Assembly: GCA_964023205.1 (NCBI GenBank)
Contig: OZ026844.1
Span: forward strand, 35,759,326 to 35,823,325
Direction: 5' to 3'
Source: Lutraria lutraria
Taxonomy: Eukaryota > Mollusca > Bivalvia > Venerida > Mactridae
DNA: 64,000 nucleotides
Below are positions 1,116 to 57,593 of this stretch, piece after piece. The first letter of the stretch is position 1. Every line of letters starts with the position of its first letter. A model generated the notes under the pieces. The model did not search any database. It saw only the letters and a list, made by a program, of their open reading frames with translations, and was not told where the DNA came from. A program made the translations under genes and the position numbers.

Positions 1116-4100
1116 TTACTTGAGCATATCTTTGTTTACATATTCGTTGGCCTTCCTCGCATGATCTTCAGAATCAGACTTCTCCTGTGTCTGACTTTTG
1201 TTCTCGAGTGCGTCCAACTTGCTAATCACGAAACTTTCTTCAAACACCCTCAACTCTTCTTTCTTGTCTTCTTCTCCGGAACTAGCTTTCTTGTCAATCA
1301 GCGCACCTTCACCTCGGATTGTTACATTGTCGATGGCTATCACGTGATCGGTCGTATCTGCAGTATCAACAGAACGAGACGAGAACAACTTCCGCCGTTC
1401 AGCCGCTCGTTCTAACTTTCTGAGAAGTTCTGGAATCGAGACTGTGAGCTCACCAAACGTTGGTCTCTTGTCAGGATCATTTTCCCAGCAACATTGCAAA
1501 ATGCGATGCCTGTGCCCAAGTTGAAGAAACATTAATTAAAGTATAACTAAAACGTGAGTTATCAGAAGGCTTTACCCATATAATAAACCCCCGTTAATTC
1601 AGAATTCCAGTACATTTTATTTCTTAAAAGTAACATGTGTTGAAGTTTCAAAAGGTCTATTGAGAAATAAATGTACAAATTTGTAGCAAATGATTTTTAA
1701 AAGATTTCCGAGCCTCATGATCAATGTCTAAAAATTAGACACGTCGTTTCCCGGTAAGGAAACTTACATTTTAATTTAATTCTATTTAGAATGAGAAGTG
1801 AAACTTGCTTCTTCTTTTTTTTGTTGGCTCAATGCGACAACTTATTGTACAAAAAATCTGTATCTTGATTAGAACTAAAATCATTTCTTATTCTATATAA
1901 AAGCTGAAAACTACCCACATTTCATCTGGACAGAATTCTGGCTTATCTAATCGTCTTCCAGTCTTTAAATAACGCAGGATATCCCATCCATCTACAGTCG
2001 GATAAGGGTTAACCCCTCTTGTTAAAAGTTCCCACATCAATATACCAAATGACCACTGCAGCAAAATAGATAAATGTACACATATACAAATGTAATATAA
2101 TTTACTAATCAATGCACTGCGAGGACCGTTGTTTGCTGGTCGTGTAGTCTGACATTGTTATACAGTTTCGTCAAATATCTTCAGTGCTAACATTGGGCAA
2201 TGGAGAACACGACAGATGGACAGATAGTCTAGTAAATCTCAATGTGAGATTCAAGAAATGACATCGCGGCTTTCAATACTTTAATTATTATTTTATTTAA
2301 GGTGTTTCTGCAATTCAAGACCGCAATTAACAATCCAGCATATGTCTGAAACATTAAACTATATGATGACTGGTTTACAATTTTCATATTTATACACTGG
2401 TTCCCGCATCGTCCTATAACGAACGCTACCATAATTGAAACCATGACTTTGGGGGATACCTACAACGTCAGATTTAGTTGAGAAGTGACCAAATTCCAAA
2501 CTTTCCGGACTCATCCATTTTACCGGAAGTTTTGCCTTTTTGTCGCATGATGTATAATACTCCTTTTCATAAACGTCACGTGATAAACCAAAATCTGCCA
2601 CCTTGACAGTCATATCATCGTCAATCCTAGAAAATAAATCAAAGTACTGAAAGTACTCATGGTAACTGACCTTACACAGCCTTACACTGTAATATGGAAT
2701 GGGAACTAGTTTTCGGCAGATTTAGAAACACGTAGTACATCAAAAGTACACGACCCACAATAACAAATATACCTGTTTAAAAATGAAATCGACCTGATAC
2801 GTCATTTTGATTAGTGGATAACACAAGTACTATTACTGCCCACGAGTATATTCAGGAACTGACGGGAAGTAATCAAGGAACAGAGTCTTAAGTATTCTTA
2901 ATCCAAGGACGTAACACATTATAAAATTGCATTGTTTAACATGATGCTTTAACTGGGATACACAATCTCATATTGTCGACTGTTCCGCGCATGAAAAAAA
3001 TATGGTAAAACCTCACTATTTTCTGGTGCCCAGGTCGTTCAGAAGAAGTTTATGTTACAACTTACATGCAGTTTCTAGCAGCAAGATCTCTGTGTACGAA
3101 TTTCAGTTGCGACAAATAATCCATTCCGTTCGTAATGTCCACACCGAACAGTACCAGTTGTTTGACGGTTGGAACCTGTAAATGTTAGTGGTCCGTTTTT
3201 ATAGTTTTATTTGCTACTTTACCAGTCTGTGCATATTTTTGGCGAATAAAATGTAGATACGTGTATTTGTATTATTTCAATATTCCTCTCATTAAAGTAC
3301 CATTTTTTTTGTACCAGATTCGATGGGTTCAAAATTTCAAATGCATTTAAATAAAATGTGTAGTAATTAAACTACAGTTAAAGTAAACTGGGATATAATA
3401 AAGGATCGCGTGCAATGAAGTCTTTGTGTTTCCTCGTACGCGCATTGCATTTAATGTATATTGTGAACCATGTATATAACACATGTATAGTCATTGTTCG
3501 GGCCACCATTGGTTTCTCACTAACCGTACACGTGTTTAACTGTATATCTGTCAGGAACTGAATTATAATTACAAATGTGAATTGAAAATGGGAAGTACTG
3601 TTTAGAACCACCATACCAGCATGCAATCAAACTTTTTTGTCCATCAAGCCTTCCCACTTAGCTCGGTTGGTTTAGGTCTATTCGTGAGATCGAGTTCTTG
3701 GCCGCGGTACGTGTTCTTGGCGACGATTTAGTTGAAGACATTATTTCTAAATTCATTCGTTCCTACCCAAATTCATTTGATTTATATTGAGAGGTTGGTA
3801 GTACTTTACGGAGTACTTATACAGAATTAATGACCTATGAATAAGGTAACTATCAGACGATATATTACTGTACTGCTGGAACGCTACAACGAACTACTTT
3901 TATAATCAACATACGTTACTGATATTCCTGATGTAGGAAAGTAGGTCTCCTTTTCTCATGTATGGTAACACTACTATTGGCAGCGCATTGATACCCAAAC
4001 ACACGCCAATCAATTCCATAACATTTTTATGATGAAAATCCTTCATCACAAGGGCTTCTTTCAAGAAACTGTTGACGTCCAGATCTGCCGGATTATTTCC

Positions 4101-10600: not shown

Positions 10601-13600
10601 GTAATTCATGGTCAGAAGGATTCCTAAAACAATATATTACGACGTTGTCTTGCACGTGAGTGACCCTACCCAAACCTACAAACATAGACACGTATAAAGT
10701 GACGTCATCAGATTCTATATTTAGTGTGAGAAACGATATCATAATTTGTATACTGACATGTATACATTGTTGGTTTCCTCAACTTTCAGCAAGATAAGTA
10801 CCCCTGATTTATCTATGATCTTTACATTACTTCCTTGTCAGTCAACACCAGTTCATTGTACTAATTAACTGACAATGTGTTGAACTTTCGAATATAGGAT
10901 GACAAATTATTTAGGCCTAATCTACGAATCTCCAGTATCCGATTACGCTATAAAACAATGTACTATCCTTTCTGATCGGCTGATCAATTTTAACCAATGA
11001 ATTTTCAGTTTTTTTGTTACGTCATATTTGCGTTGATTCTAATTGGCTGGCCGAAATCATCCAATGAATCTCCAGTATTTGGTGGTACTAATATGATATT
11101 ATCGATTTTGATCGGTTGCTTGTATATTTAATAATGAATATAATGATGTTCCTCATTGCCATATTGTATGGTAAAAAATGGACAAATGATGTTATTTAAC
11201 TGTGTTTGCAGGTTGTACGTAAATCTACGAAGTTAAGCTTTATTACCAGATAAGAAAACGTGGAATCGTATTCAGCAGAGGCGTGGCAACTCATTGATGT
11301 CGCATATAGCTTGTCAATCGATATGTTTACGCGAATAGTCAAATTTCCAGATGATGTTTGCTCTTGGGTTTTGCAAATAATGCTGAAAATCATACATAAA
11401 CATATAAATTACTGTACTAGACCAAAACTTCTCCCATCTGACAATATGTTATAGTTTCAAGGTAGATAAACATTTACTTAACGACCAATCGCGAATAAAA
11501 ACTACATGTACTTTGAAAGCGCAGTCCCTTTAACACTGATGTGCATTATTATTATTATAATGTTAAGAGGGCAAAATAATGAGTGATCAGTTTTAGTTGA
11601 TTTTGTCGAGCAAAATAATTTTAACTGAAGGAAATATATATATATACAGTAAATCTTATTTTTTTTTTTTTTTTTTTTGTAAAAGTGCCCGGTGATGTTG
11701 AAACAGGTTGGCGAAAAATGATAGAATTATAAGCATCAGATTTTGTCAACTGACCTCCGCACAATATTGATGGCTGTTGAAGAAACAGCCTTCGTATACC
11801 ACAAATACATTACATACATAAAGATCCAATTCATTCATCTAAAATCAGAAATAAAAGAAAATGTTAGTTAATCATCAAACAAACAGTATAGGCAGCTTAC
11901 CTATTTAATGTGTTTGGTTGAGTCATCTGACAGGTTGAGTTTCCAATGGTGATGGCCACGTTTGGCGGGTTACTATTGTATGCTGAATAATAACCAAATT
12001 CTCCGGAAATAGTCAGCATCGTGCCACCGTCTATTGTACCATTCAATGGGGTTATTTTATCAATCTGATAGGACACAGAAAAAGACACATTCTTCATACA
12101 GACTTAATACAATTAGACCCGTCTTCGTTGTCGAGTGGTTAATATCGCTGAATTCGAATCACTGTATCCTCTCACTGATAGAGGGCCATGGGTTCGAGCC
12201 CAGTTACCAACCATGTCTCTTTATGTGAGAAAGTAGACAGTTGCTTACGGAGGATGGGAGCCTAATTCGCTACTTAATGATGAACACGTGGGTTGTCATA
12301 GACTGAATTTCTGTCCCTTGATTACTGAATCTAACTTTTTTCTAGTTTCTATTTTCATCTTGTCCAGCACAGTCGCTTAAATTGTCATTCAGATTTTGTT
12401 TGTAATGAGTTGTGGTTCCCTGCAATAGGGTCTTAACAATATTTTTGTCTCAGGAATTCAACAAGAGAGGTAAAGAGTCAAAGGCCATTGTGATCGTCTG
12501 ATGACGTCATTACTTACTTGTCGTAAACATGTGACCAAAATATTGTACACATGTGACCAAAATATTGTAAACATGTGACAAATATATTGTTAAAGGTAAG
12601 ACGAAACTATTATCAGATAAAGAGAAACTGTTGAAGACAAGTCCAAAATTCAATGACCCTTATCAGGTGGACAAACTATTGTAGCAACCTCTAAATGAGG
12701 GTCTATTCTAGTGGATATGAACAAATATCATCTAAGTATGTGTGTGAAGTTGGCAATGCAATCGACAATCGACAATCGACATTCAATGTCTAGCTCGACA
12801 ATCGACATTCATCTCGACATTCGTGAAACAGGCTGTATGGCCATCATAATAATGTAAATTTCGAATGTCTAGCTAGACAATCGACATTCATCTCGACATT
12901 CGAAAAACGAACTGTATAGCCGTCAAAGTAATGAAATTTCGAATGTCTAGCTCGACAATCGACATTCATCTCGACATTCGAAAAACGGACTGTATATAGC
13001 CGTCAAAGTAAAGAAATTTCGAATGTCTAGCTCGACAATCGACATTCATCTCGACATTCGAAAAACGAACTGTATAGCCGTCAAAGTAATGAAATTTCGA
13101 ATGTCTAGCTAGACAATCGACATTCATCTCGACATTCGAAGTTACGACTGTATCGCTGTCAAAGTAAAGAAATTTCGAATGTCTAGCTAGACAATCGACA
13201 TTCATCTCGACATTCGAAAAACGAACTGTATAGCCGTCAAAGTAATGAAATTTCGAATGCCTAGCTCGACAATCGACATTCATCTCGACATACGTAAAAC
13301 AGACTGTATATAGCCGTCAAAGTAATGAAATTTCGAATGTCTAGCTCGACAATCGACATTCATCTCGACATTCGAAAAACGAACTGTATAGCCGTCAAAG
13401 TAAAGAAATTTCGAATGTCTAGCTAGACAATCGACATTCATCTCGACATTCGAAAAACGGACTGTATCGCTGTCAAAGTAAAGAAATTTCGAATGACTAG
13501 CTCGACAATCGACATTCATCTCGACATTCGAAAAACGAACTGTATAGCCGTCAAAGTAATGAAATTTCGAATGTCTAGCTAGACAATCGACATTCATCTC

Positions 13601-16600
13601 GACATTCGTGAAACAGGCTGTATGGCCATCATAATAATGTAAATTTCGAATGTCTAGCTCGACAATCGACATTCATCTCGACATTCGTAAAACAGACTGT
13701 ATATAGCCGTTAAAGTAATGAAATTTCGAATGTCTAGCTCGACAATCGACATCCATCTCGACATTCGAAAAACGAACTGTATATCGCCGTCAAAGTAAAG
13801 AAATTTCGAATGTCTAGCTAGACAATCGACATTCATCTCGACATTCGAAAAACGAACTGTATAGCCGTCAAAGTAATGAAATTACGAATGCCTAGCTCGA
13901 CAATCGACATTCATCTCGACATACGTAAAACAGACTGTATATAGCCGTCAAAGTAATGAAATTTCGAATGTCTAGCTCGACAATCGACATTCATCTCGAC
14001 ATTCGAAAAACGAACTGTATAGCCGTCAAAGTAAAGAATTTTCGAATGTCTAGCTAGACAATCGACATTCATCTCGACATTCGAAAAACGGACTGTATCG
14101 CTGTCAAAGTAAAGAAATTTCGAATGTCTAGCTCGACAATCGACATTCATCTCGACATTCGTGAAACAGGCTGTATGGCCATCATAATAATGTAAATTTC
14201 GAATGTCTAGCTCGACAATCGACATCCATCTCGACATTCGAAAAACGAACTGTATATAGCCGTCAAAGTAATGAAATTTCGAATGTCTAGCTAGACAATC
14301 GACATTCATCTCGACATTCGAAAAACGGACTGTATATAGCCGTCAAAGTAATGAAATTTCGAATGTCTAGCTAGACAATCGACATTCATCTCGACATTCG
14401 AAAAACGGACTGTATATAGCCGTCAAAGTAAAGAAATTTCGAATGTCTAGCTCGACAATCGACATTCATCTCGACATTCGAAAAACGGACTGTATATAGC
14501 CGTCAAAGTAAAGAAATTTCGAATGACTAGCTCGACAATCGACATTCATCTCGACATTCGAAAAACGAACTGTATAGCCGTCAAAGTAATGAAATTTCGA
14601 ATGTCTAGCTAGACAATCGACATTCATCTCGACATTCGAAGTTACGACTGTATCGCTGTCAAGTAAAGAAATTTCGAATGTCTAGCTAGACAATCGACAT
14701 TCATCTCGACATACGTAAAACAGACTGTATATAGCCGTCAAAGTAATGAAATTTCGAATGTCTAGCTCGACAATCGACATTCATCTCGACATTCGAAAAA
14801 CGAACTGTATAGCCGTCAAAGTAAAGAAATTTCGAATGTCTAGCTAGACAATCGACATTCATCTCGACATTCGAAAAACGGACTGTATCGCTGTCAAAGT
14901 AAAGAAATTTCGAATGTCTAGCTCGACAATCGACATTCATCTCGACATTCATAAAACAGACTGTATATAGCCGTTAAAGTAATGAAATTTCGAATGTCTA
15001 GCTCGACAATCGACATCCATCTCGACATTCGAAAAACGAACTGTATATAGCCGTCAAAGTAATGAAATTTCGAATGTCTAGCTAGACAATCGACATTCAT
15101 CTCGACATTCGAAAAACGGACTGTATATAGCCGTCAAAGTAAAGAAATTTCGAATGTCTAGCTCGACAATCGACATTCATCTCGACATTCGAAAAACGGA
15201 CTGTATATAGCCGTCAAAGTAAAGACATTTCGAATGTCTAGCTCGACAATCGACATTCATCTCGACATTCGAAAAACGAACTGTATAGCCGTCAAAGTAA
15301 TGAAATTGCGAATGTCTAGCTAGACAATCGACATTCATCTCGACATTCGAAGTTACGACTGTATCGCCGTCAAAGTAAAGAAATTTCATATGTCTAGCTA
15401 CCCAATCGACATTCATCTCGACATTCGAAAAACGAACTGTATAGCCGTCAAAGTAAAGAATTTTCGAATGTCTAGCTAGACAATCGACATTCATCTCGAC
15501 ATTCGAAAAACGGACTGTATCGCTGTCAAAGTAAAGAAATTTCGAATGTCTAGCTCGAAAATCGACATTCATCTCGACATTCGTGAAACAGGCTGTATGG
15601 CCATCATAATAATGTAAATTTCGAATGTCTAGCTCGACAATCGACATCCATCTCGACATTCGAAAAACGAACTGTATATAGCCGTCAAAGTAATGAAATT
15701 TCGAATGTCTAGCTAGACAATCGACATTCATCTCGACATTCGAAAAACGGACTGTATATAGCCGTCAAAGTAAAGAAATTTCGAATGTCTAGCTCGACAA
15801 TCGACATTCATCTCGACATTCGAAAAACGGACTGTATATAGCCGTCAAAGTAAAGAAATTTCGAATGTCTAGCTCGACAATCGACATTCATCTCGACATT
15901 CGAAAAACGAACTGTATAGCCGTCAAAGTAATGAAATTTCGAATGTCTAGCTAGACAATCGACATTCATCTCGACATTCGAAGTTACGACTGTATCGCTG
16001 TCAAAGTAAAGAAATTTCGAATGTCTAGCTAGACAATCGACATTCATCTCGACATTCGAAAAACAAACTGTATAGCCGTCAAAGTAATGAAATTTCGAAT
16101 GCCTAGCTCGACAATCGACATTCATCTCGACATACGTAAAACAGACTGTATATAGCCGTCAAAGTAATGAAATTTCGAATGTCTAGCTCGACAATCGACA
16201 TTCATCTCGACATTCGAAAAACGAACTGTATCGCTGTCAAAGTAATGAAATTTCGAATGTCTAGCTCGACAATCGACATTCATCTCGACATTCGTGAAAC
16301 AGGCTGTATGGCCATCATAATAATGTAAATTTCGAATGTCTAGCTCGACAATCGACATTCATCTCGACATTCGTAAAACAGACTGTATATAGCCGTTAAA
16401 GTAATGAAATTTCGAATGTCTAGCTCGACAATCGACATCCATCTCGACATTCGAAAAACGAACTGTATATAGCCGTCAAAGTAATGAAATTTCGAATGTC
16501 TAGCTAGACAATCGACATTCATCTCGACATTCGAAAAACGGACTGTATATAGACGTCAAAGTAAAGAAATTTCGAATGTCTAGCTAGACAATCGACATTC

Positions 16601-19600
16601 ATCTCGACATTCGAAAAACGGACTGTATATAGCCGTCAAAGTAAAGACATTTCGAATGTCTAGCTCGACAATCGACATTCATCTCGACATTCGAAAAACG
16701 AACTGTATAGCCGTCAAAGTAATGAAATTTCGAATGTCTAGCTAGACAATCGACATTCATCTCGACATTCGAAGTTACGACTGTATCGCCGTCAAAGTAA
16801 AGAAATTTCAGATGTCTAGCTACCCAATCGACATTCATCTCGACATTCGAAAAACGAACTGTATAGCCGTCAAAGTAATGAAATTTCGAATGCCTAGCTC
16901 GACAATCGACATTCATCTCGACATACGTAAAACAGACTGTATATAGCCGTCAAAGTAATGAAATTTCGAATGTCTAGCTCGACAATCGACATTCATCTCG
17001 ACATTCGAAAAACGAACTGTATAGCCGTCAAAGTAAAGAAATTTCGAATGTCTAGCTCGACAATCGACATTCATCTCGACATTCGAAAAACGGACTGTAT
17101 CGCTGTCAAAGTAAAGAAATTCTGAATGTCTAGCTCGACAATCGACATTCATCTCGACATTCGTGAAACAGGCTGTATGACCATCATAATAATGTAAATT
17201 TCGAATGTCTAGCTCGACAATCGACATTCATCTCGACATTCGTAAAACAGACTGTATATAGCCGTTAAAGTAATGAAATTTCGAATGTCTAGCTAGACAA
17301 GCGACATCCATCTCGACATTCGAAAAACGAACTGTATATAGCCGTCAAAGTAAAGAGATTTCGAATGTCTAGCTAGACAATCGACATTCATCTCGACATT
17401 CGAAAAACATACTGTATATAGCCGTCAAAGTAAAGAAATTTCGAATGTCTAGCTCGACAATCGACATTCATCTCGACATTCGAAAAACGAACTGTATAGC
17501 CGTCAAAGTAATGAAATTTCGAATGTCTAGCTAGACAATCGACATTCATCTCGACATTCGAAGTAACGACTGTATCGCTGTAAAAGTAAAGAAATTTCGA
17601 ATGTCTAGCTCGACAATCGACATTCATCTCGACATTCGTGAAACAGGCTGTATGGCCATCATAATAATGTAAATTTCGAATGTCTAGCTCGAAAATCGAC
17701 ATTCATCTCGACATTCGTAAAACAGACTGTATATAGCCGTTAAACTAATGAAATTTCGACTGTCTAGCTCGACAATCGACATCCATCTCGACATTCGAAA
17801 AACGAACTGTATATCGCCGTCAAAGTAATGAAATTTCGAATGTCTAGCTAGACAATCGACATTCATCTCGACATTCGAAAAACGAACTGTATAGCCGTCA
17901 AAGTAATGAAATTTCGAATGTCTAGCTCGACAATCGACATTCATCTCGACATTCGTAAAACAGACTGTATATAGCCGTTAAAGTAATGAAATTTCGAATG
18001 TCTAGCTCGACAATCGACATTCATCTCGACATTCGAAAAACGAACTGTATATAGCCGTCAAAGTAATGAAATTTCGAATGTCTAGCTAGACAATCGACAT
18101 TCATCTCGACATTCGAAAAACGAACTGTATAGCTGTCAAAGCAATGAAATTTCGAATGTCAAGCTCGACAATCGACATTCATCTCGACATTCGTGAAACA
18201 GGCTGTATGGCCATCATAATAATGTAAATTTCGAATGTCTAGCTCGGCAATCGACATTCATCTCGACATTCGAAGTTACGACTGTATTGCCGTCAAAGTA
18301 ATGTAATTTTCGAATGTCTAGCTCGACAATCGACATTCTTCTCGGCATTCGAAGTTACGACTGTATCGCTGTCATAGTAATTGAATTTTCGAATGTCAAG
18401 CTATACATATGAAAATGTGAGGTTAAAAAACTGGTAGTAACCAAGAAAATATTTCCATGTCAACATCAACCTGACTAGACTTAGCATTTAGACAATTAAC
18501 ATACTCCAATATTCTCTGGGGGAATTAAATTTGTTCTCATTTTTGGACTTGATTTTTATCAAAATCAAGTCCTTTGTAATCGTTGACTTATATTTGTCGC
18601 TGGACTCCATAACAGCTTGGTTAAAAGAATGCCACATAAAGGAAATAGTGCGCAACTAAATGGTATGTTTATATAGAAGTATCTGGAATCTTTCCCCAAT
18701 TAAGTGTGTCAGATCTAAATACATTTCAAATCATTCTATCGTAACTACATGGAAGGAGTCATGTATCTAAATAAGTGCTTGTCGGTAGATACATGAGATT
18801 TTCAAATGCGTATAATTAACACCGCGTAGTCACTGTCCAATAAAATATCTTGCCGTAAAAGTAGTTCTACTTTCGGTCTTCGTTCGATATTTCAGAAAAA
18901 TCTCCACGGACGTATTCATGCATTTGCAACAATCTACCATCGATGTGAGTGTTTTGTGCCTTTCTAACATTTCTTAATATTACAAAGCGAATTCTCATTT
19001 AATCGTATTCACCAACTAGTGTTATTTTGATGACGGAATCGCTATTTATAGACTCACTCCCCGCAGTGGCTAGTAGCAAAGCGTAACCGATGTGGGGAGT
19101 TTGATTTATCGAAGGTTGAATGTTAAAACTGCGGCTTAAGAATAATAATTCGAGTCGCTAAATACGAACGTAAATTACTGGATACGTGCTTTTAAAATTT
19201 ACTGTTTAAGAGTTCCTTTTACGCCAGATTATTTAGAATTACATAATCACGTCTGAATTTCATGCAACATAGGGTTAACTATAGGTCATATAGGTCTTAC
19301 TCTACTGTGTCAGGACCTTTTTGATTTGAGTGACCCTGAATGTGTTCAATGCGACGATGTTCTGTTGTGTTAAAACCAGAAGAATCAATGTTTGTATTTA
19401 CTGTTACTGAAGTGTTGTTTACTAGTTTTGTACAATAAAGAGTTTTTAATGCAATTAAATTGTCCTCAATTAATGTGCTAATCATTAAACTTTCCAATAT
19501 CAGGCTTTTTCATTTTAAAATTTTAGCAAAGAGACTATAGTAAAGCCCTAGCTTATGCCATTACCTATATGCATATGACCTGCATTACAATATGAATGAA

Positions 19601-22600
19601 AAATCGGTCCGTAATTTTAAATGTTAAAATATTTGTATGGGCTCGAACGATGTGGGTACACATTTCTCTCTTTTGTCTCGTATGGTAAAAATCAAGTCCG
19701 ACAGTACTTTCAGGACGTTGATTCTTATTTTGGTCTTAAAAGTCGAGATGAATGTCGATTGTCGAGCTAGACATTCGAAATTTCATTACTTTAACGGCTA
19801 TATACAGTCTGTATTACGAATGTCGAGATGAATGTCGATTGTCGAGCTAGACATTCGAAATTTACATTATTATGATGGCCATACAGCCTGTTTCACGAAT
19901 GTCGAGATGAATGTCGATTGTCGAGCTAGACATTCGAAATTTCTTTATTTTGACGGCGATATAGTCCGTTTTTCGAATGTCGATGAATGTCGATTGTCTA
20001 GCTAGACATTCGAAATTTCTTTACTTTGACGGCGCGATACAGTCGTAACTTCGAATGTCGAGATGAATGTCGATTGTCTAGCTAGACATTCGAAATTTCA
20101 TTACTTTGACGGCTATACAGTTCGTTTTTCGAATGTCGAGCTAGACATTCGAAATTTACATTATTATGATGGCCATACAGCCTGTTTCACGAATGGCGAG
20201 ATGAATGTCGATTGTCGAGCTAGACATTCGAAATTTCTTTACTTTGACGGCGATACAGTTCGTTTTTCGAATGTCGAGATGAATGTCGATTGTCTAGCTA
20301 GACATTCGAAATTTACATTATTATGATGGCCATACAGCCTGTTTCACGAATGTCGAGATGAATGTCGATTGTCGAGCTAGACATTCGAAATTTCATTACT
20401 TTGACGGCTATACAGTTCGTTTTTCGAATGTCGAGATGAATGTCGATTGTCTAGCTAGACATTCGAAATTTCATTACTTTGACGGATATATACCGTCCGT
20501 TTTTCGAATGTCGAGATGAATGTCGATTGTCGAGCTAGACATTCGAAATTTCTTTACTTTGACGGCGATACAGTCCGTTTTTCGAATGTCGAGATGAATG
20601 TCGATTGTCTAGCTAGACATTCGAAATTTCTTTACTTTAACGGCTATATACAGTCTGTTTTACGAATGTCGAGATGAATGTCGATTGTCGAGCTAGACAT
20701 TCGAAATTTACATTATTATGATGGCCATACAGCCTGTTTCACGAATGTCGAGATGAATGTCGATTGTCAAGCTAGACATTCGAAATTTCTTTACTTTGAC
20801 GGCTATATACAGTCCGTTTTTCGAATGTCGAGATGAATGTCGATTGTCTAGCTAGACATTCGAAATTGCATTACTTTGACGGCTATATACAGTCTGTTTT
20901 ACGAATGTCGAGATGAATGTCGATTGTCGAGCTAGACATTCGAACTTTCATTACTTTGACGGCTATACAGTTCGTTTTTCGAATGTCGAGATGAATGTCG
21001 ATTGTCTAGCTAGACATTCGAAATTTCTTTACTTTGACGGCTATACAGTTCGTTTTTCGAATGTCGAGATGAATGTCGATTGTCGAGCTAGACATTCGAA
21101 ATTTCATTACTTTGACGGCTATATACAGTCTGTTTTACGAATGTCGAGATGAATGTCGATTGTCGAGCTAGACATTCGAACTTTCATTACTTTGACGGCT
21201 ATACAGTTCGTTTTTCGAATGTCGAGATGAATGTCGATTGTCTAGCTAGACATTCGAAATTTCTTTACTTTGACGGCGATACAGTCGTAACTTCGAATGT
21301 CGAGATGAATGTCGATTGTCTAGCTAGACATTCGAAATTTCATTACTTTGACGGCTATACAGTTCGTTTTTCGAATGTCGAGCTAGACATTCGAAATTTA
21401 CATTATTATGATGGCCATACAGCCTGTTTCACGAATGGCGAGATGAATGTCGATTGTCGAGCTAGACATTCGAAATTTCTTTACTTTGACGGCGATACAG
21501 TTCGTTTTTCGAATGTCGAGATGAATGTCGATTGTCTAGCTAGACATTCGAAATTACATTACTTTGACGGCTATATACAGTCCGTTTTTCGAATGTCGAG
21601 ATGAATGTCGATTGTCGAGCTAGACATTCGAAATTTCTTTACTTTGACGGCGATACAGTCCGTTTTTCGAATGTCGAGATGAATGTCGATTGTCTAGCTA
21701 GACATTCGAAATTTCATTACTTTAACGGCTATATACAGTCTGTTTTACGAATGTCGAGATGAATGTCGATTGTCGAGCTAGTCATTCGAAATTTACATTA
21801 TTATGATGGCCATACAGCCTGTTTCACGAATGTCGAGATGAATGTCGATTGTCGAGCTAGACATTCGAAATTTCTTTACTTTGACGGCTATATACAGTCC
21901 GTTTTTCGAATGTCGAGATGAATGTCGATTGTCGAGCTAGACATTCGAAATTTCTTTACTTTGACGGCGATACAGTTCGTTTTTCGAATGTCGAGATGAA
22001 TGTCGATTGTCGAGCTAGACATTCGAAATTTCATTACTTTAACGGCTATATACAGTCTGTTTTACGAATGTCGAGATGAATGTCGATTGTCGAGCTAGAC
22101 ATTCGAAATTTACATTATTATGATGGCCATACAGCCTGTTTCACGAATGTCGAGATGAATGTCGATTGTCTAGCTAGACATTCGAAATTTCTTTACTTTA
22201 ACGGCTATATACAGTCTGTTTTACGAATGTCGAGATGAATGTCGATTGTCGAGCTAGACATTCGAAATTTACATTATTATGATGGCCATACAGCCTGTTT
22301 CACGAATGTCGAGATGAATGTCGATTGTCAAGCTAGACATTCGAAATTTCTTTACTTTGACGGCTATATACAGTCCGTTTTTCGAATGTCGAGATGAATG
22401 TCGATTGTCTAGCTAGACATTCGAAATTGCATTACTTTGACGGCTATATACAGTCTGTTTTACGAATGTCGAGATGAATGTCGATTGTCGAGCTAGACAT
22501 TCGAACTTTCATTACTTTGACGGCTATACAGTTCGTTTTTCGAATGTCGAGATGAATGTCGATTGTCTAGCTAGACATTCGAAATTTCTTTACTTTGACG

Positions 22601-25600
22601 GCTATACAGTTCGTTTTTCGAATGTCGAGATGAATGTCGATTGTCGAGCTAGACATTCGAAATTTCATTACTTTGACGGCTATATACAGTCTGTTTTACG
22701 AATGTCGAGATGAATGTCGATTGTCGAGCTAGACATTCGAACTTTCATTACTTTGACGGCTATACAGTTCGTTTTTCGAATGTCGAGATGAATGTCGATT
22801 GTCTAGCTAGACATTCGAAATTTCTTTACTTTGACGGCGATACAGTCGTAACTTCGAATGTCGAGATGAATGTCGATTGTCTAGCTAGACATTCGAAATT
22901 TCATTACTTTGACGGCTATACAGTTCGTTTTTCGAATGTCGAGCTAGACATTCGAAATTTACATTATTATGATGGCCATACAGCCTGTTTCACGAATGGC
23001 GAGATGAATGTCGATTGTCGAGCTAGACATTCGAAATTTCTTTACTTTGACGGCGATACAGTTCGTTTTTCGAATGTCGAGATGAATGTCGATTGTCTAG
23101 CTAGACATTCGAAATTACATTACTTTGACGGCTATATACAGTCCGTTTTTGGAATGTCGAGATGAATGTCGATTGTCGAGCTAGACATTCGAAATTTCTT
23201 TACTTTGACGGCGATACAGTCCGTTTTTCGAATGTCGAGATGAATGTCGATTGTCTAGCTAGACATTCGAAATTTCATTACTTTAACGGCTATATACAGT
23301 CTGTTTTACGAATGTCGAGATGAATGTCGATTGTCGAGCTAGTCATTCGAAATTTACATTATTATGATGGCCATACAGCCTGTTTCACGAATGTCGAGAT
23401 GAATGTCGATTGTCGAGCTAGACATTCGAAATTTCTTTACTTTGACGGCTATATACAGTCCGTTTTTCGAATGTCGAGATGAATGTCGATTGTCGAGCTA
23501 GACATTCGAAATTTCTTTACTTTGACGGCGATACAGTTCGTTTTTCGAATGTCGAGATGAATGTCGATTGTCGAGCTAGACATTCGAAATTTCATTACTT
23601 TAACGGCTATATACAGTCTGTTTTACGAATGTCGAGATGAATGTCGATTGTCGAGCTAGACATTCGAAATTTACATTATTATGATGGCCATACAGCCTGT
23701 TTCACGAATGTCGAGATGAATGTCGATTGTCGAGCTAGACATTCGAAATTTCTTTACTTTGACGGCGATACAGTCCGTTTTTCGAATGTCGAGATGAATG
23801 TCGATTGTCTAGCTAGACATTCGAAATTTCATTACTTTGACGGCTATATACAGTTCGTTTTTCGAATGTCGAGATGAATGTCGATTGTCTAGCTAGACAT
23901 TCGAAATTTCTTTACTTTGACGGCGATACAGTCGTAACTTCGAATGTCGAGATGAATGTCGATTGTCTAGCTAGACATTCGAAATTTCATTACTTTAACG
24001 GCTATATACAGTCTGTTTTACGAATGTCGAGATGAATGTCGATTGTCGAGCTAGACATTCGAAATTTCATTACTTTGACGGCTATACAGTTCGTTTTTCG
24101 AATGTCGAGATGAATGTCGATTGTCTAGCTAGACATTCGAAATTGCATTACTTTGACGGCTATATACAGTCTGTTTTACGAATGTCGAGATGAATGTCGA
24201 TTGTCGAGCTAGACATTCGAACTTTCATTACTTTGACGGCTATACAGTTCGTTTTTCGAATGTCGAGATGAATGTCGATTGTCTAGCTAGACATTCGAAA
24301 TTTCTTTACTTTGACGGCGATACAGTCGTAACTTCGAATGTCGAGATGAATGTCGATTGTCTAGCTGGACATTCGAAATTTCATTACTTTGACGGCTATA
24401 CAGTTCGTTTTTCGAATGTCGAGATGAATGTCGATTGTCGAGCTAGACATTCGAAATTTCATTACTTTGACGGCTATATCCATCCGTTTTTCGAATGTCG
24501 AGATGAATGTCGATTGTCGAGCTAGACATTCGAAATTTCTTTACTTTGACGGCGATACAGTCCGTTTTTCGAATGTCGAGATGAATGTCGATTGTCGAGC
24601 TAGACATTCGAAATTTCTTTACTTTGACGGCGATACAGTTCGTTTTTCGAATGTCGAGATGAATGTCGATTGTCGAGCTAGACATTCGAACTTTCATTAC
24701 TTTGACGGCTATATACAGTCTGTTTTACGAATGTCGAGATGAATGTCGATTGTCGAGCTAGACATTCGAACTTTCACTACTTTGACGGCTATACAGTTCG
24801 TTTTTCGAATGTCGAGATGAATGTCGATTGTCTAGCTAGACATTCGAAATTTCTTTACTTTGACGGCTATACAGTTCGTTTTTCGAATGTCGAGATGAAT
24901 GTCGATTGTCGAGCTAGACATTCGAAATTTCATTACTTTGACGGCTATACAGTTCGTTTTTCGAATGTCGAGATGAATGTCGATTGTCGAGCTAGACATT
25001 CGAAATTTCATTACATTGACGGCTATACAGTTCGTTTTTCGAATGTCGAGATGAATGTCGATTGTCGAGCTAGACATTCGAAATTTACATTATTATGATG
25101 GCCATACAGCCTGTTTCACGAATGTCGAGATGAATGTCGATTGTCGAGCTAGACATTGAATGTCGATTGTCGATTGTCGATTGCATTGCCAACTTCACAC
25201 ACATCATCTAAGTACACTTACTCTTAATGGACATTTTGCTGGATCGACCAATATTTTCCCGAGCTGAAATAACGACATGAAATCGACCATGACTTAAGAT
25301 CTTAAAGTCAATGTAGAACAATATATACGACTAAGATTTACGAACTTTTTTTTATAAAGCGTAAAATCAGCAAGCATGCTATCTAAAAGTAATGGCTGAG
25401 GAAAGTTGTTTAAATTCCTACGACAGTAGAATAAAGTTATTGTGAGTTCCCGGAGACCCGAATAATATATCTTCGTAATTTTCTTAATTTCCTTACATCC
25501 ATAGTTTCACTGTACCAAGAATAATGAAATAAATAAAGACGTGTTTTACGGAAATATCAGATTGTTCATTTTAACCATAAACAAATGTATACAAGAATCA

Positions 25601-28311
25601 TGTTCTTCATAACTATACGTTCTCAATAGTTGCGTACTTGGTAAGAATAATTCGTTTGCTTTCAGACAGTACATCTGTGGGAGAACATGAAAGGAAATCT
25701 TTCGAGCTGAAGTTTTTAAGTATGTACGACGCATGTGTTACTCTATGTGATTTACTGATGAGTTTCTGACTAAAAGTGAATAGACTATTCTTACCTCGTT
25801 AGACGATATGTAAAAAAGCATTGCTCCATTATTAGTAAGCACTATTTGACGGATTTGGTCATTGGAAACATTAAAAAACTCGTGTCGGGTTATCTGCATC
25901 GTCGATGGTTCGAAAATAATCTTAAAATAAGCAAAGTGTTCGAAAATGAATATGACCTGTGTAGAGTGGACATAATTATTACGTTATTTAATAATTTTAA
26001 ATTAGTAGAGTTCTTAGAATGTTATAGACATTGCTGGTTGCTATTTAAATGATTTAAGCTGTCATGACCATAATGTCAAAATTAAGGATACCAAAATGAA
26101 GTAATCTTATTTGGGAACATTTTGATATTTGTTTGGTATGTTTCTTTGACAAAATGATTTACCGTGAGATTTTTCAAAAACGAAAAAAACACTAACCAAC
26201 ATGATTTTACCAAGAAATTAAAGGAAACCGAACAACATTTTCAGAAGGCAGATACTTTGTTGTTGTTTTTTTCTAAAAAAAAAGACATCCACCATCAAGA
26301 CCATAATTGGACAATACTATTTTTGTTGTCACGTGAGAGGATGTTGTTCTGGAGATGGTGAAGTAATACAATGTTAAATCGTGCAGTGTGAATAAATCAT
26401 GCTGTTGTTGAAGGTTGGTTGTTGCCTAAGAGTGGGCCGCTCTGGCGAGGTTGTACTGTAATCGTTTCTCTATATATAGAGATCCTTAATTTGAACACCT
26501 GTATCTCATAATCACTTACATAAGAAAGAAAACGACTTGAAAATGACTTTCAGTGGACCTTAAATTTACAATGATGTTACAAATAAGCCTAAAGCAATAT
26601 TTATTTCTAACCCGTGAACTTAAGATTGTAGAAATTGTGTGTGCTTAAAGGTCGAATGTCGATATAAGAGGAGAAAGTTGAGAGAGGGCTTATTACCTTC
26701 AAAATATTTCCAATCCGAAAGCCGATATATCCGATTACTGTGTCACCATAGGTTTTAAAAATCATGTCATGGTTAGCCACGTGACCATCCAGTTTGAATA
26801 TATGCTGTGTTGTTAGTGCTTCACCAGAAACAATTCTCGTGTTGAGACTAGTATGACCACAGTAAAATTCGTTTTTAGACTACAAATGAAAACATACATA
26901 TTAACACTCTACATAAAGACCATGTTGTTTGGGATCAAATCAAAAGATCGTAATATTCAGATGGTCATAACATTAAGATGGGGGGGGGGGGTAATGTTGA
27001 GGTAATTGAGGTTTTAATGTAGATAAGAAATGTATGTACCTTGTTTAAAATATGCTCATTGGCTCATTGGGGGGAAACAGCCTTTTATTTCACATGAGGC
27101 ATGTTAACCTAGAATAAATTTGTATTTGGCAAACCTTTATACTTTATCGCGCAGTCAATAAACATGTACGAGGACATGTCTCCTTAGGTGAGATGAAATA
27201 TATGGTACTTTTATATACAAACGTACCGTCCGTCTTTAATCAAAGGATAAGCTACTCTATTGTAAATGTTTGGAAAGAGGTGACTTTTGATCGCATGTTC
27301 ATCTTTACTTATAGATGGTCATTTACTCAGGTTTTAAATTACAATTGTTTCACTCACATAGACTGTTGTACACGACTCGCCAGTACCATCGATCCATTGT
27401 GGCCAACTACCTTTTTTAAGTTTAAAACAACTGTACAGTGTATTATTAAAATGCTCCTCAAGTTTTTGAAAATCATAAATACACAATGCTGACGTATCAT
27501 GGTCGTCCATGGCAACGGCTAGAAAAGATTTGAACCCTGTAACTATCGTAGTAGCAGAAAGCACATGAGAATAGTTGCCACACTGGAGCTCGGTCTCCAT
27601 GTAAGAACGGAAATCCTCATTATTACACATTTGGCTTATCATCACTTTACTGTTGTTTTCAGTATTAACATTCCGAATGAAGTAAGAATATTTATTTCCT
27701 GAAAGAAATGAATACACAAAGTCAAACTTCTGATCTCTCTTGGATTGGAAAGTGTAATCTGTACTCATCGTTGTAATATTTCCATACCGCGATAGATAGC
27801 CGAGAGAAAGAGTATTTACTTCTTCCGAATCGGTGAATGCCGAATGGTACATCATGTACTCTGGATCAGTTTTAAATATTACAAGTTGAGCAGACACGGT
27901 GGCACTGTGTGGGAAAATATTGTGCTCACTATAGTAATCTTTCTGTATAACGTTACTTGTCCTTATGTCCGTTGCATCGTAGATAGAACACCCATAAAAG
28001 TGACATTGCAACAAGTACTGGTGGGCAGTTAAGTCAAATAACTGGAACACCGTAGGTTTATACCTAAACGTTTGTGAGGCGTTATCAAATATCTGATCTA
28101 CCGGAATGTCCACTTGATATACCAATCCACTGTCTGAGATTTCTCCTCGGTGAAACTGGAGAAGAGTGTCGTCGTCACGTGCTATGACATCATCTGATTC
28201 AGTCACTAAAACGGAATGAAATTCACCCGAATCCGTTTTGAAAACCATGCCCTGTGTTTCGCTGACACAGAACAATATTGAAGAAACCAAAAGTAACCAA
28301 AAATATTCCAT
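1116..28311 (-). CDS. MET/RON-like receptor tyrosine kinase, 17 coding exons
   Basis: Predicted type I receptor tyrosine kinase of the MET/RON (HGF/MSP receptor) family, about 1194 aa, acting at the plasma membrane. Coding exons on the minus strand, 5' to 3': 28311-27358, 26879-26697, 25893-25795, 25263-25222, 12064-11901, 8759-8607, 8269-8194, 7876-7646, 7113-6961, 6146-5855, 5354-5190, 4625-4542, 4099-3915, 3175-3066, 2626-2464, 2055-1919, 1509-1116. Every junction has GT-AG borders, and reading phases match throughout (3585 nt, stop TAA). Order: signal peptide, Sema, IPT/TIG repeats, TM (about residues 721-740), juxtamembrane region, kinase. The extracellular and kinase segments align by eye with vertebrate MET. 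Two oddities: no PSI exon was found between the CPLR exon and the first IPT exon, and that intron carries a 12.5-kb foldback element. The ligand cannot be inferred. Individual exon ends are my own splice calls, without transcript support. Confidence 0.9.
5190..6146 (-). CDS. Transmembrane and juxtamembrane exons of the receptor
   Basis: Exon 6146-5855 encodes the end of the last IPT-like domain, a Thr/Pro-containing stalk, a hydrophobic helix ([20 protein letters not shown]) and a stop-transfer run RRRKKKK. Exon 5354-5190 encodes the juxtamembrane segment and the start of the kinase (EIIGQG). The first exon ends in phase 1 and is completed by the second. A single-pass type I topology follows from the N-terminal signal peptide and this helix. 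Confidence 0.9.
6961..12064 (-). CDS. IPT/TIG-repeat exons of the receptor ectodomain
   Basis: Five exons: 12064-11901, 8759-8607, 8269-8194, 7876-7646 and 7113-6961. They encode three to four immunoglobulin-like IPT/TIG repeats. Recognisable strand motifs are [20 protein letters not shown] (repeat 1), [16 protein letters not shown] (repeat 2) and a repeat matching the membrane-proximal MET IPT ([10 protein letters not shown] then GSNLTHI). Spaced cysteines and several NxS/T glycosylation sites occur. The first exon starts in phase 0, matching the phase-0 end of the exon at 25263-25222, so the two can be joined in frame without a PSI exon. Confidence 0.88.
9928..10067. repeat. Small inverted-repeat (MITE-like) hairpin in an intron
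   Basis: The 29-bp arm at 9928-9956 (contains catcaaacaacgcaaatctg) is the exact reverse complement of 10039-10067. About 80 bp of AT-rich sequence lie between them, including partially self-complementary stretches. It sits in the intron between the first and second IPT exons. It looks like a short MITE, but I could not define a target-site duplication. Confidence 0.6.
12116..12290 (+). mobile_element. tRNA-derived SINE copy
   Basis: A pol III A-box-like stretch (gtcgagtggttaa) is followed about 60 bp later by a B box (ggttcgagccc), as in tRNA-Ser/Leu-type heads. After the head comes a non-tRNA body (gtctctttatgtgagaaagt) that is shared with the copy at 28650-29050 on the other strand. It lies in the intron next to the foldback element. 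Confidence 0.7.
12524..12590 (+). repeat. Short tandem repeat, about 22 bp x 3
   Basis: The unit acatgtgaccaaaatattgt occurs three times in succession with small changes (the last copy reads gacaaatatattg). No function is evident. Confidence 0.75.
12728..12738. repeat. Target-site duplication, left copy
   Basis: The 11-bp sequence tcatctaagta immediately precedes the outer tip of the left foldback arm and is repeated exactly at 25204-25214. The last base can be assigned to the element or the duplication, so the true duplication is 9-11 bp. Confidence 0.85.
12770..18411 (-). repeat. Left foldback arm: about 71 tandem copies of a 78-80 bp unit
   Basis: The unit begins gaatgtctagctcgacaatc, continues with gacattcatctcgacattcg and ends in a variable half of about 38 bp. 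Variants of that half (aaaaacgaactgtatagccg, gtgaaacaggctgtatggcc, aagttacgactgtatcgctg) recur in ordered series. Blocks also recur at about 1,422 bp, for example 14918-15100 against 16340-16522. Many units are 78 bp (26 codons), so long ORFs appear by chance; 79- and 80-bp variants break them. These ORFs are not genes. The innermost units near 18230-18410 are the most diverged. Confidence 0.93.
18412..19740. other. Unique centre of the foldback element
   Basis: About 1.33 kb of AT-rich single-copy sequence between the arms. I found no transposase or other recognisable coding region; the longest ORF is 66 aa (19297-19497, minus) with no motif. It contains a perfect 12-bp-stem hairpin at 18545-18572 (ggacttgatttt / aaaatcaagtcc) and a second short inverted repeat near 19046-19090 (actcccc / ggggagt). 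The string aaaatcaagtcc recurs near 19687, close to the right arm. Confidence 0.7.
19741..25180 (+). repeat. Right foldback arm: about 69 tandem copies of the same unit, inverted
   Basis: This is the same 78-80 bp unit as the left arm in reverse-complement orientation (for example gaatgtcgagatgaatgtcg then attgtcgagctagacattcg). A few units are shortened, for example near 20130 and 21380 where gaatgtcgagctagacattc skips an internal segment. The array ends with a degenerate triple cgattgt run just before the 25203 tip. Predicted peptides from it ([10 protein letters not shown] type) are by-products of the repeat length. Confidence 0.93.
20583..23728 (+). repeat. Recent 1,561-bp tandem duplication within the right arm
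   Basis: Positions 20583-22143 and 22144-23704 (with spill-over to about 23728) match unit by unit with the same variant order at an offset of exactly 1,561 bp, about 20 units. The only difference I noticed is ttttggaatg at 23150 against ttttcgaatg in the first copy. This higher-order block indicates recent unequal exchange or replication slippage within the arm. Confidence 0.85.
25204..25214. repeat. Target-site duplication, right copy
   Basis: The 11 bp tcatctaagta match 12728-12738 exactly. On the minus strand this is intron position +8 to +18 after the exon ending at 25222, so the donor gtaagtg stays intact. Confidence 0.85.
25222..26879 (-). CDS. C-terminal Sema exons of the receptor
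   Basis: Exons 26879-26697, 25893-25795 and 25263-25222, all in phase 0. They encode the last Sema propeller blades ([13 protein letters not shown] and [20 protein letters not shown] then [13 protein letters not shown]) and the short ending [14 protein letters not shown]. The final Cys is where a PSI domain would normally begin, but the next exon that fits is an IPT exon. The 42-nt exon at 25263-25222 is followed directly by the donor gtaagt and then by the foldback insertion. Confidence 0.85.
27358..28311 (-). CDS. First coding exon: signal peptide and most of the Sema domain
   Basis: A single 954-nt exon starting at the ATG at 28311. The N terminus [20 protein letters not shown] is a clear signal peptide. 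The following roughly 300 residues form the N-terminal Sema propeller, with scattered cysteines and NxS/T sites. The exon ends in GTCTAT before the donor gtgagt (27357-27352), phase 0. No upstream in-frame ATG is needed. A 5' untranslated exon may exist but cannot be seen. Confidence 0.88.
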
Positions 28312-35623: not shown

Positions 35624-38600
35624 CTGTAAATATACAATGAATATATAAGAAGATACATGCACTTTTTTGTCTTAAACGTAACTCTACTTTATCTATTTCC
35701 AATTATCGCCCTTGCGTATTCTTGAGATAAATATCACCAACAGTGTTTATAATTCAAAATATTTAAACGAAACTTAATCAGATGTCAATGAGTAGAAATC
35801 AGAACACAGGAATCATAACACAGCCACATCTGTTTTCGTTTAACTAACATAAATTTAATTTCAATGATAAACATTGATAGGAACGTACATGTAATTCCAA
35901 AACCAATCAAGGCATGCGTCTTGAAACTTGCAATTGGAATATTATTACAAAAAAAAGTAGATAGCAAAAAAGAGAAGTGTAGGGGATACAAATCATATTT
36001 GTTTGTTAAACGGGCCTTATATGTATACAAATATCATATATAAATGAGTGCTAAACATACTTTTAGCAGTGGTTGTGGTTGGTACCTCAGTGGTTGTGGA
36101 AGGCGTGCCAATGGTTGTGGTAGGCGCGTCAGTGGTTGTGGTAGGTGTGCCAGTGGTTGTGGTAGGTGTGTCAGTGGTTGTGGTAGGTGTGTCAGTGGTT
36201 GTGGTAGGTGTGTCAGTGGTTGTGGTAGGTGTGTCAGTGGTTGTGGTAGGTGTGTCAGTGGTTGTGGTAGGTGTGTCAGTGGTTGTGGTAGGTGTGTCAG
36301 TGGTTGTGGTAGGTGTGCCAGTGGTTGTGGTAGGTGTGTCAGTGGTTGTGGTAGGCGTGCCAATGGTTGTGGTAGGCGCGTCAGTGGTTGTGGTAGTTGT
36401 GCCAGTGGTTGTGGTAGGTGTGTCAGTGGTTGTGGTAGGTGTGTCAGTGGTTGTGGTAGGTGTCTCGGTGCTTGTGGTAGGTGTGTCAGTGGTTGTGGTA
36501 GGTGTGTCAGTGGTTGTGGTAGGTGTGTCAGTGGTTGTGGTAGGTGTGTCAGTGGTTGTGGTAGGCGTGTCAGTGGTTGTGGTAGGTGTGTCAGTGGTTG
36601 TGGCAGGCGAGTCAGTGGTTGTGGCAGTGGTTGTGGTAGGTGTGTCAGTGGTTGTGGTAGGTGTGTCAGTGGTTGTGGCAGGTGTCTCGGTGCTTGTGGT
36701 AGGTGTGTCAGTCGTTGTGGTAGGTGTGTCAGTGGTTGTGGTAGGTGTGTCAGTGGTTGTGGTAGGTGTGTCAGTGGTTGTGGCAGGTGTCTCGGTGCTT
36801 GTGGTAGGTGTGTCAGTCGTTGTGGTAGGTGTGTCAGTGGTTGTGGTAGGTGTGTCAGTGGTTGTGGCAGGTGTCTCGGTGCTTGTGGTAGGTGTGTCAG
36901 TGGTTGTGGCAGGGGTCTCAGTGGTTGTGGTATGTGTGTCAGTGGATGTGGTAGGCGGGTCAGTGGTGGTGGTAGGCGTGTCAGTGGTTGTGGTAAGTAT
37001 GTCAGTGGTTGTGGTAGGTGTGTCAGTGGTTGTGGTAGGTGTCTCGGTGCTTGAGGTAAGTGTGTCAGTGGTTGTGGTAGGTGTCTCGGTGCTTGTGGTA
37101 GGTGTGTCAATGGTTGTGGTAGGCGTGTCAGTGGTTGTGGTAGGCGCGTCAGTGGTTGTGGTAGGTGTGTCAGTGGTTGTGGTAGGTGTCTCAGTGGTTG
37201 TAGTAGGTGTGTCAGTGGTTGTGGTAAGTGTGTCAGTGGTTGTGGTAGGTGTCTCGGTGCTTGTGGTAGGTGTGTCAGTGGTTGTGGTAGGTGTGTCAGT
37301 GGTTGTGGTAGGTGTGTCAGTGGTTGTGGTAAGTGTTTCAGTGGTTGTGGCAGGTGTATCAGTGGTTGTGGTAGGTGTGTCAGTGGTTGTGGTAGGTGTA
37401 TCAGTGGTTGTGGTAGGTGTATCAGTGGTTGTGGTAGGTGTGTCAGTGGTTGTGGTAGGTGTGTCAGTGGTTGTGGTAGGTGTCTCGGTGCTTGTGGTAA
37501 GTGTGTCAGTGGTTGTGGTAAGTGTGTCAGTGGTTGTAGTAGGTGTGTCAGTGGTTGTGGTAGGTGTGGTAGTGGTAGTGGTAGGCGCGTCAGTGGTTGT
37601 GGTAGGCTTGTCAGTGGTAGTGGTAGGTGTTTTAGTGGCTGAGGTAGAACTGTCAGTGGTTGTGGTAGGCGTGTCAGTTGTTGTGGTAGGCGTGTCAGTG
37701 GTAGTATTAGGTGCCTCAGTGGTTGTTGTAGCTACCTCAGTAGATTTGGTAGGTTCCTCAGTTGTTGTGGTAGGCGTGTCAGTAGTTGTGGTAAGTACCG
37801 CAGTGGTTGTGGTCGGTGCTATAGTTGTTGGGAGGTATGGACTTTCTGAACAAACAACTCTTATCAACGGCTCGGCTTTGAAAAGGAAGTAGAATAATAT
37901 TAAATTAATAATAAGTAAAACATGCTAGTACTACATGTATAAAGTCATGTATGTCATTTCAGTTATGATTCTGATAATTGTTTGTTTGTTCATTGGTACG
38001 CTCGCTTGATAGATTGATAGGAACAAACATGTTCTTCCATTTCATTGCAAGAGTCCTTCAACATCAACTAGTTAGAAACAAAATGAGATAAAAAAAAGAA
38101 GCAGTTACAAAAATGTATATCGCATTGGTCTAAACATTGTTAAAGAGCAAATAGATAGATAGATAGATTTATAGATAGTACATTAAAAGTTTAAAACATA
38201 CAAACAATGAAAGACAGGTATGAATTAAAGAAGCCATGTCAATCAACATTTTATAGTAAATAACCATCAACAGAAAAACTGAATTCACAATTAGTTGGAA
38301 TCTGTACTTGAGTATAGACTAACACACATTTATAATTGTTCATGTTCAAATGATAAGTAAAAATACAAATACTTACTGCTGCTGCCACCCGAATTAGACT
38401 CAGTATCATTTTGATCTGAAATAGAATATATACAGTCCATTTTTACAATGACTTCTTTCCAAGGAGTTTCCTCAGATTGCAGTCTATTTTACGTTAAAGG
38501 TCATATGGTTAAGAAATATATAATTGGTTATCAATCGCAAATATAATAAATGTTTATGAGCATAAGTACGAATGTATGTAAACACGACTCAAAGGCCTGG

Positions 38601-56841: not shown

Positions 56842-57593
56842 TTTATCTTATATTATACATGATAATTATATGCATTTGGTCCGTGTGACCATTATTCCTT
56901 GTCTGGAGTCATCAATTTATACACTTGTCTCTGTAATGTACTTCAATTATATGAGTTGAGTTTTATTTTTTTGAGTGTTTAAATTTGTGTTAAGACTGTT
57001 AGATTACAGAAGTGCTGTTATTTTGTGAAACTTTGAATATCTGTAGAACCATAAAAGTATTTGAATTGTCAGATTTGAAAAGAAATGCTCCTTTCATATA
57101 ACAGATATTATCATTTCTTAATAGAAAATAAGAATTTACACTGAACTGGACAAGTTTTAAGAGCACCTTTAAGGAACTGAGATTTCTAGTAATGCTTGAC
57201 CAACTCTCACTTGAAAGATTTTTTTTTTCACAAAATTTGATATTGGTATGTTTCATAAAAAATTCTGGAAAATTTAATGAGCTAAAAAATAATCATGTAG
57301 CCTCTTAACCAGACATTTTTTGCACATAAAATGTGTGGATGTTGCTGGAGGCATCACATCTTAGTCATGAACTGTACAACTGGGATGAATCCACATTCTG
57401 CAAGTCTGACTGCTGACAAAGACAATATTGCATTTTCCTTTTCTTTCTTGATACGTTCTCATACAGTAAGGAACTTCTTTTTCTCTTTGGTATGTGAATC
57501 AACTTATATGGTACATTGTCTACACCATTATGCAACTTCTGTTCTGCTTTCTCTGTCTCAAGCACTATCTCAGAATCATAAACAGTAACAGGT

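Follow-up and report, generated by a model that had tools for sequence, protein, structure and literature searches.

The window, by which we mean the whole 64-kb stretch of DNA analysed here, holds a single copy of a foldback transposon family. Its parts, together with the target-site duplications on either side, are the following.

12729-12737, no strand: left target-site duplication CATCTAAGT, identical to 25205-25213
12738-12784, + strand: left tip of 47 bp, starting ATGTGTGTGAAGTTGGCAATGC; the same tip stands at both ends
12785-18402, + strand: left arm, about 71-72 tandem units of 78-80 bp (from Tandem Repeats Finder, length and word counts)
18403-19741, + strand: centre of 1,339 bp (from hits to the centre sequence)
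18403 to about 18540: within the centre, the element's inner end and a likely antisense LINE remnant
from about 18540 on: within the centre, a dispersed repeat that is independent of the element and nested in it
19742-25157, - strand: right arm, about 69 reversed copies of the left-arm unit (from Tandem Repeats Finder, inverted pairs and word counts)
25158-25204, - strand: right tip, the reverse complement of the left tip
25205-25213, no strand: right target-site duplication CATCTAAGT, matching the left 9 bp

The preliminary description had reported inverted ends and a pair of opposite arrays, each with about 70 units, and this dissection bears them out. Tandem Repeats Finder gave a unit of 78-79 bp in the left arm and its reverse complement in the right one (78-80 bp overall), and inverted pairs between the two arms reach 543 nt at 96%. 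For the word TCGACATTC the count is 130 in the left arm and zero in both the right arm and the centre; its reverse complement GAATGTCGA is found 134 times in the right arm, once in the remaining window and never in the left arm or the centre. In having long inverted repeats composed of tandem subrepeats, the element is of the foldback (FB/TU) type. A search of positions 12000-26000 against Rfam gave no match.

The target-site duplication had been described as an exact 11 bp. This was wrong: it measures 9 bp, the longer figure resulting from a chance run into the terminal A and T of the element. Since every one of the family's 34 simple tip pairs introduced below has AT before GTGTGTGAAG at both ends, the tip starts ATGTGTGTG (the family tip sequence is also written ATGTGTGTGAAGTTGG), the element covers 12738-25204 and the duplication is 9 bp long.

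Copies and target sites across the genome

The same 728-Mb genome was searched for relatives of the window element. A query of 273 bp from the left end gave at least 108 alignments among the best 40 of 918 candidates, which were scored. A 21-base tip pattern with up to two mismatches gave 312 genome matches (176 forward, 136 reverse), compared with two for the reversed-pattern control, so that the other same-tip copies for which a search had been proposed do exist. From the matches listed by the left-end search and by the tip pattern (the first 100 of the 312) we drew 34 simple tip pairs. An exact 9-bp duplication flanks 28 of them, in line with the expectation of further insertions with duplications of 9-11 bp; the pair at C4:13.67M has 9 bp with one mismatch, and that at C7:11.34M has exactly 10 bp, within an A run. 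When left and right flanks of different copies were mis-paired as a control, none of 1,122 combinations matched exactly. The target duplication of about 9 bp is thus also that of an FB/TU-type foldback element. The duplication is absent from the remaining four pairs (C4:8.78, C6:40.032, C5:37.2 and C11:14.8), which could be mis-paired tips or recombinants; chimeric Galileo copies have been reported as recombinants in the part of the literature accessible to us (PMC3573991). In the last of the four, C11:14751772-14767509, the 9 bp on one flank are almost the reverse complement of those on the other, rather than a direct duplication.

For 15 insertions, the flanks were joined with one copy of the duplication and compared against DNA fetched from this genome. 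Related uninterrupted sites, which are repeats elsewhere in the same genome and not alleles of other individuals, were found for three of the 15, with falling strength. The insertion at C16:3.93M is matched by locus L065 (C14:11.936M) over 212 bp at 88% across the joint (strong), that at C4:0.81M by locus L028 over 76 bp at 88%, small gaps lying close to the joint (moderate), and that at C3:18.78M by the window over 47 bp at 83% (weak). In the DNA fetched, nothing but itself matched across the joint of the window element, and no related uninterrupted site was seen for the other eleven joints. The foldback transposon of the preliminary description is hence supported by many same-tip copies, by 9-bp duplications and by related empty sites.

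Centres and arms

Our comparison did not uphold the unique centre as the core of the family. A search with the 1,339-bp centre yielded 2,035 candidates, and among the best 40 of these, 14 span practically the whole centre and 26 start at centre position 120 or later; the centre is therefore mostly an unrelated, independent repeat which landed in the ancestor of one subfamily. The beginning of the centre has a fuller counterpart at L065, where the inverted repeat extends into the matching stretch. A frame neighbouring this centre-like stretch matches RVT_1, though weakly (E 3.6e-5, under the curated cut-off), so that a LINE remnant in the centre is likely. Moreover, the copy at C7:11.34M has a different centre of 3 kb, and the two smallest of the copies read, about 1.5 kb long with exact duplications, consist of inverted satellite arrays without any centre, so that tips and arrays suffice. 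These findings rule out the centre as family core: the family is tips plus arrays, and the centre is a passenger. A variable or absent middle in many copies is likewise characteristic of FB/TU-type foldback elements, and this is what the family displays. The 3-kb centre of the C7 copy (L027 3590-6605) has similar ends (CCCTTTCA...) and is probably a nested DNA transposon. At L065, from position 3021 on, one foldback copy, whose tip differs slightly, begins inside the centre of another, which indicates that foldback copies nest in each other.

Six full-centre copies, out of at least 14 among the best 40 centre candidates, were compared in both centre and arms. Between their centres, 3-8 substitutions and 0-9 gap columns were counted over about 1,340-1,348 columns, and this small number of substitutions points to recent multiplication. 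The arms of the same six copies range from 1,079 to 12,586 bp, and those of all copies measured from 0.7 to 12.6 kb, although the exact lengths could carry assembly error. We named the arms a or b by the orientation of the centre and scored sharing as exact 100-mers. Between copies, mean sharing was 0.31 for a-a, 0.38 for b-b and 0.14 for a-b, whereas the two arms of one copy shared 0.16 on average; the labelling based on orientation had the best score of all 32 labellings. Inclusion of the divergent C3 copy changed these means to 0.25 (a-a), 0.31 (b-b), 0.13 (a-b) and 0.18 (own arms). Since sharing on the same side exceeds sharing with the own partner, the arms for the most part move together with the centre and each changes its length independently, and homogenisation of the arms by left-to-right copying is not the rule. 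Some exchange between the arms of one copy may nevertheless occur, because own-arm sharing is high in the C1 copy (0.36) and in the C3 copy (0.31, above the value of C3 with any other copy).

A composite on C8

The strongest find of this study sits outside the window. At C8:25445010-25506925, two foldback copies enclose 40,043 bp in a composite of 62 kb.

C8:25445010-25451432: left foldback copy of the composite
C8:25491476-25506925: right foldback copy of the composite

Neither copy has a duplication of its own (7 and 6 mismatches of 9), and the outermost flanks of the composite share AATTATAGC exactly over 9 bp. A locus related to the interior lies about 5 Mb away on the same chromosome, at C8:20595247-20646177; this segment is about 50.9 kb long as against 40.0 kb for the interior, and the two were compared at sampled stretches. 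The left end of the interior matches 1,200 bp at 99% from C8:20595247, and the right end matches 2.77 kb up to C8:20646177 with 20 substitutions and 20 gap columns. Between them, 3,001 bp match at 94% at C8:20623894 and contain a trypsin-like exon (PF00089, E 1.1e-8), and a second exon stretch, 77% similar, is present in both interior and related locus. At both inner junctions, the match stops exactly at the foldback tip, and beyond them the related locus is free of tip or satellite, as read over 547 bp to the left and approximately 1.3 kb to the right. The left inner junction falls in a high-copy repeat, with the 99% match running on past the repeat. This one locus has the make-up of a foldback-flanked composite: host DNA lies between two elements and stops at their inner tips, and the pair has one duplication, at its outer flanks.

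Movement as one composite fits as the simplest reading of the C8 locus. Two foldback copies would have inserted around the segment on some chromosome and would then have moved it as a unit, and the assembled 20.6-Mb allele would represent the version without the two copies. The 40-kb stretch with its trypsin-like exon was likely carried to a new site by the two copies together. Alternatively, the segment would not have moved as a unit: after a single copy had inserted at AATTATAGC, a break in it would have been repaired with a chromosome as template that carried two copies around the 20.6-Mb segment. Such repair would be favoured by the long arms which copies have in common, and it would lead to the same end product, including the outer duplication, at what is one locus. 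It does, however, require an extra step as well as a two-copy donor chromosome, and we consider it less likely than movement as one composite.

Mobilisation and related systems

The identical tips, the opposed arrays of 79-bp units and the 9-bp duplications characterise a foldback DNA transposon family, which is probably moved in trans by a MULE transposase encoded elsewhere. A Mutator type is the most likely because of the duplication length, which the MULE-encoding foldback family Tm1 shares (PMC3169594). In the sections of the literature accessible to us, MULE duplications are 8-11 bp (PMC6446971); the 9 bp observed here fall within this range, and such a duplication alone is no proof of a MULE. 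A Mutator-type transposase would act in trans at the outer tips, and the tips together with the units bearing TCGACATTC would be putative binding sites, by analogy with TIR repeat units reported as further binding sites for one Galileo (PMC3573991) and suggested as such for Tetris (PMC4079207). The arrays would lengthen and shorten quickly, and if the outer tips alone matter, neighbouring copies could move the intervening DNA as one composite.

None of the copies yielded a transposase. Scanning frames of two centres (three frames in the window, six in the C7 copy) gave two weak matches, both lying far short of the curated cut-offs, which is consistent with the earlier suggestion of a non-autonomous element. 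The C7 centre was considered as a transposase carrier and rejected, as six of its ten frames of at least 70 aa were scanned and nothing was found above the curated cut-offs. A 30-kb C3 copy was also considered as an autonomous member and rejected, because its extra length appears to consist of nested retroelement pieces with integrase-like frames.

The enzyme could instead belong to another superfamily, as in Galileo with its P-type transposase. Foldback structures arose more than once from different superfamilies according to the accessible parts of two papers (PMC3169594, PMC4079207), and the transposase is not seen here; yet among the 34 pairs, 28 have duplications of exactly 9 bp, in contrast to 7 bp in Galileo copies (PMC3573991), and we regard a different superfamily as improbable next to a MULE. 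Long near-identical arrays are hard to assemble, and exact arm lengths may be off. That the two arms do not form one continuous inverted structure is nevertheless very unlikely, given matching 9-bp flanks on both sides in 28 of 34 pairs, two copies as short as 1.5 kb and a centre orientation which predicts arm resemblance across six copies. Rolling-circle elements are not known to make inverted tips or target duplications. Both are present in this family, and it is hardly conceivable that it represents a dispersed satellite on Helitron or Helentron elements, even though Helentrons carry satellite-like arrays in an oyster, Crassostrea gigas, in the text available (PMC7492417).

Among known systems, described here from the accessible parts of the respective papers, the structurally closest is Tetris of Drosophila virilis (PMC4079207). 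Both are foldback elements with satellite-like tandem repeats in the TIRs, a variable non-coding middle and no known transposase, and the Tetris duplications of 8-10 bp resemble the 9 bp found here. However, Tetris has a 220-bp unit in three complete copies, whereas our family has a 79-bp unit in arms of up to many kilobases and, unlike Tetris, centre-free copies and a gene-bearing composite. In root-knot nematodes, the Tm1 family likewise has TIRs of variable tandem repeats and mostly 9-bp duplications, but its units are 14 bp; it has coding and non-coding members, one of which encodes a MULE (Phantom-type) transposase, in contrast to our copies (PMC3169594). Galileo shares with our family long TIRs with tandem repeats, repeat numbers that change independently on each side and some non-matching flanks, and differs in its P-type transposase, its TIRs of up to about 1.26 kb and its 7-bp duplication, a length not seen here (PMC3573991). 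Rehavkus elements, which are MULE relatives, also combine a 9-bp duplication with a minisatellite beside an end. Their TIRs are 26-400 bp, the minisatellite lies before the 3' TIR, the transposase contains a PHD finger and the hosts are arthropods and annelids; in our family the satellite makes up both arms, and none of the frames scanned gave a transposase (PMC6446971). Movement of large host segments between two foldback elements has been cited from Drosophila work of the 1980s (PMC6431247), and that composite TE spans hundreds of kilobases, whereas ours is 62 kb and base-exact, with duplication and related locus. In the open-access text available to us, we found no foldback family described from a mollusc: two oyster satellitome papers name foldbacks in the reference list only (PMC8268682, PMC11136912), and the accessible part of a bivalve transposon survey does not use the word (PMC10294476). 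What appears to be new within this literature is that one family unites arms of a 79-bp unit as long as 12.6 kb, copies lacking a centre and a composite with gene cargo that is resolved at the sequence level.

The element may be viewed as a moving satellite, in which tips and inverted arrays are enough, array length changes many-fold in a recent burst and DNA between copies becomes mobile, so that pairs of foldback copies would act as an active gene-scale duplication machine. We hold the arguments for and against this wider view to be evenly balanced. If it is true, 40 kb with a trypsin-like exon were duplicated elsewhere with a clean 9-bp scar. The family also illustrates how an element that inserts can spread satellite DNA. 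At the C8 locus, a candidate is known to the base, complete with its target duplication, a related locus and a gene as cargo; together with about 300 tips and recent copies, it makes composite transposition and array growth in transposon ends directly testable in population samples.

Several further features were noted elsewhere in the window. Broken frames at 57361-59473 (- strand) read like a decayed transposase, with a weak Ulp1 match (PF02902, E 0.021, below the cut-off) and possible SWIM-like and PHD-like cysteine motifs recognised by eye; no foldback tip lies near them. A tyrosine kinase exon at 2362-2721 (- strand; PF07714, E 3.4e-16) is probably part of a host gene beside the element. 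Moreover, a 21-bp minisatellite of about 83 copies occupies 36067-37818, where G+C is raised to 0.50 with a strong strand skew, and a 38-bp unit forms four perfect tandem copies at 39710-39862.
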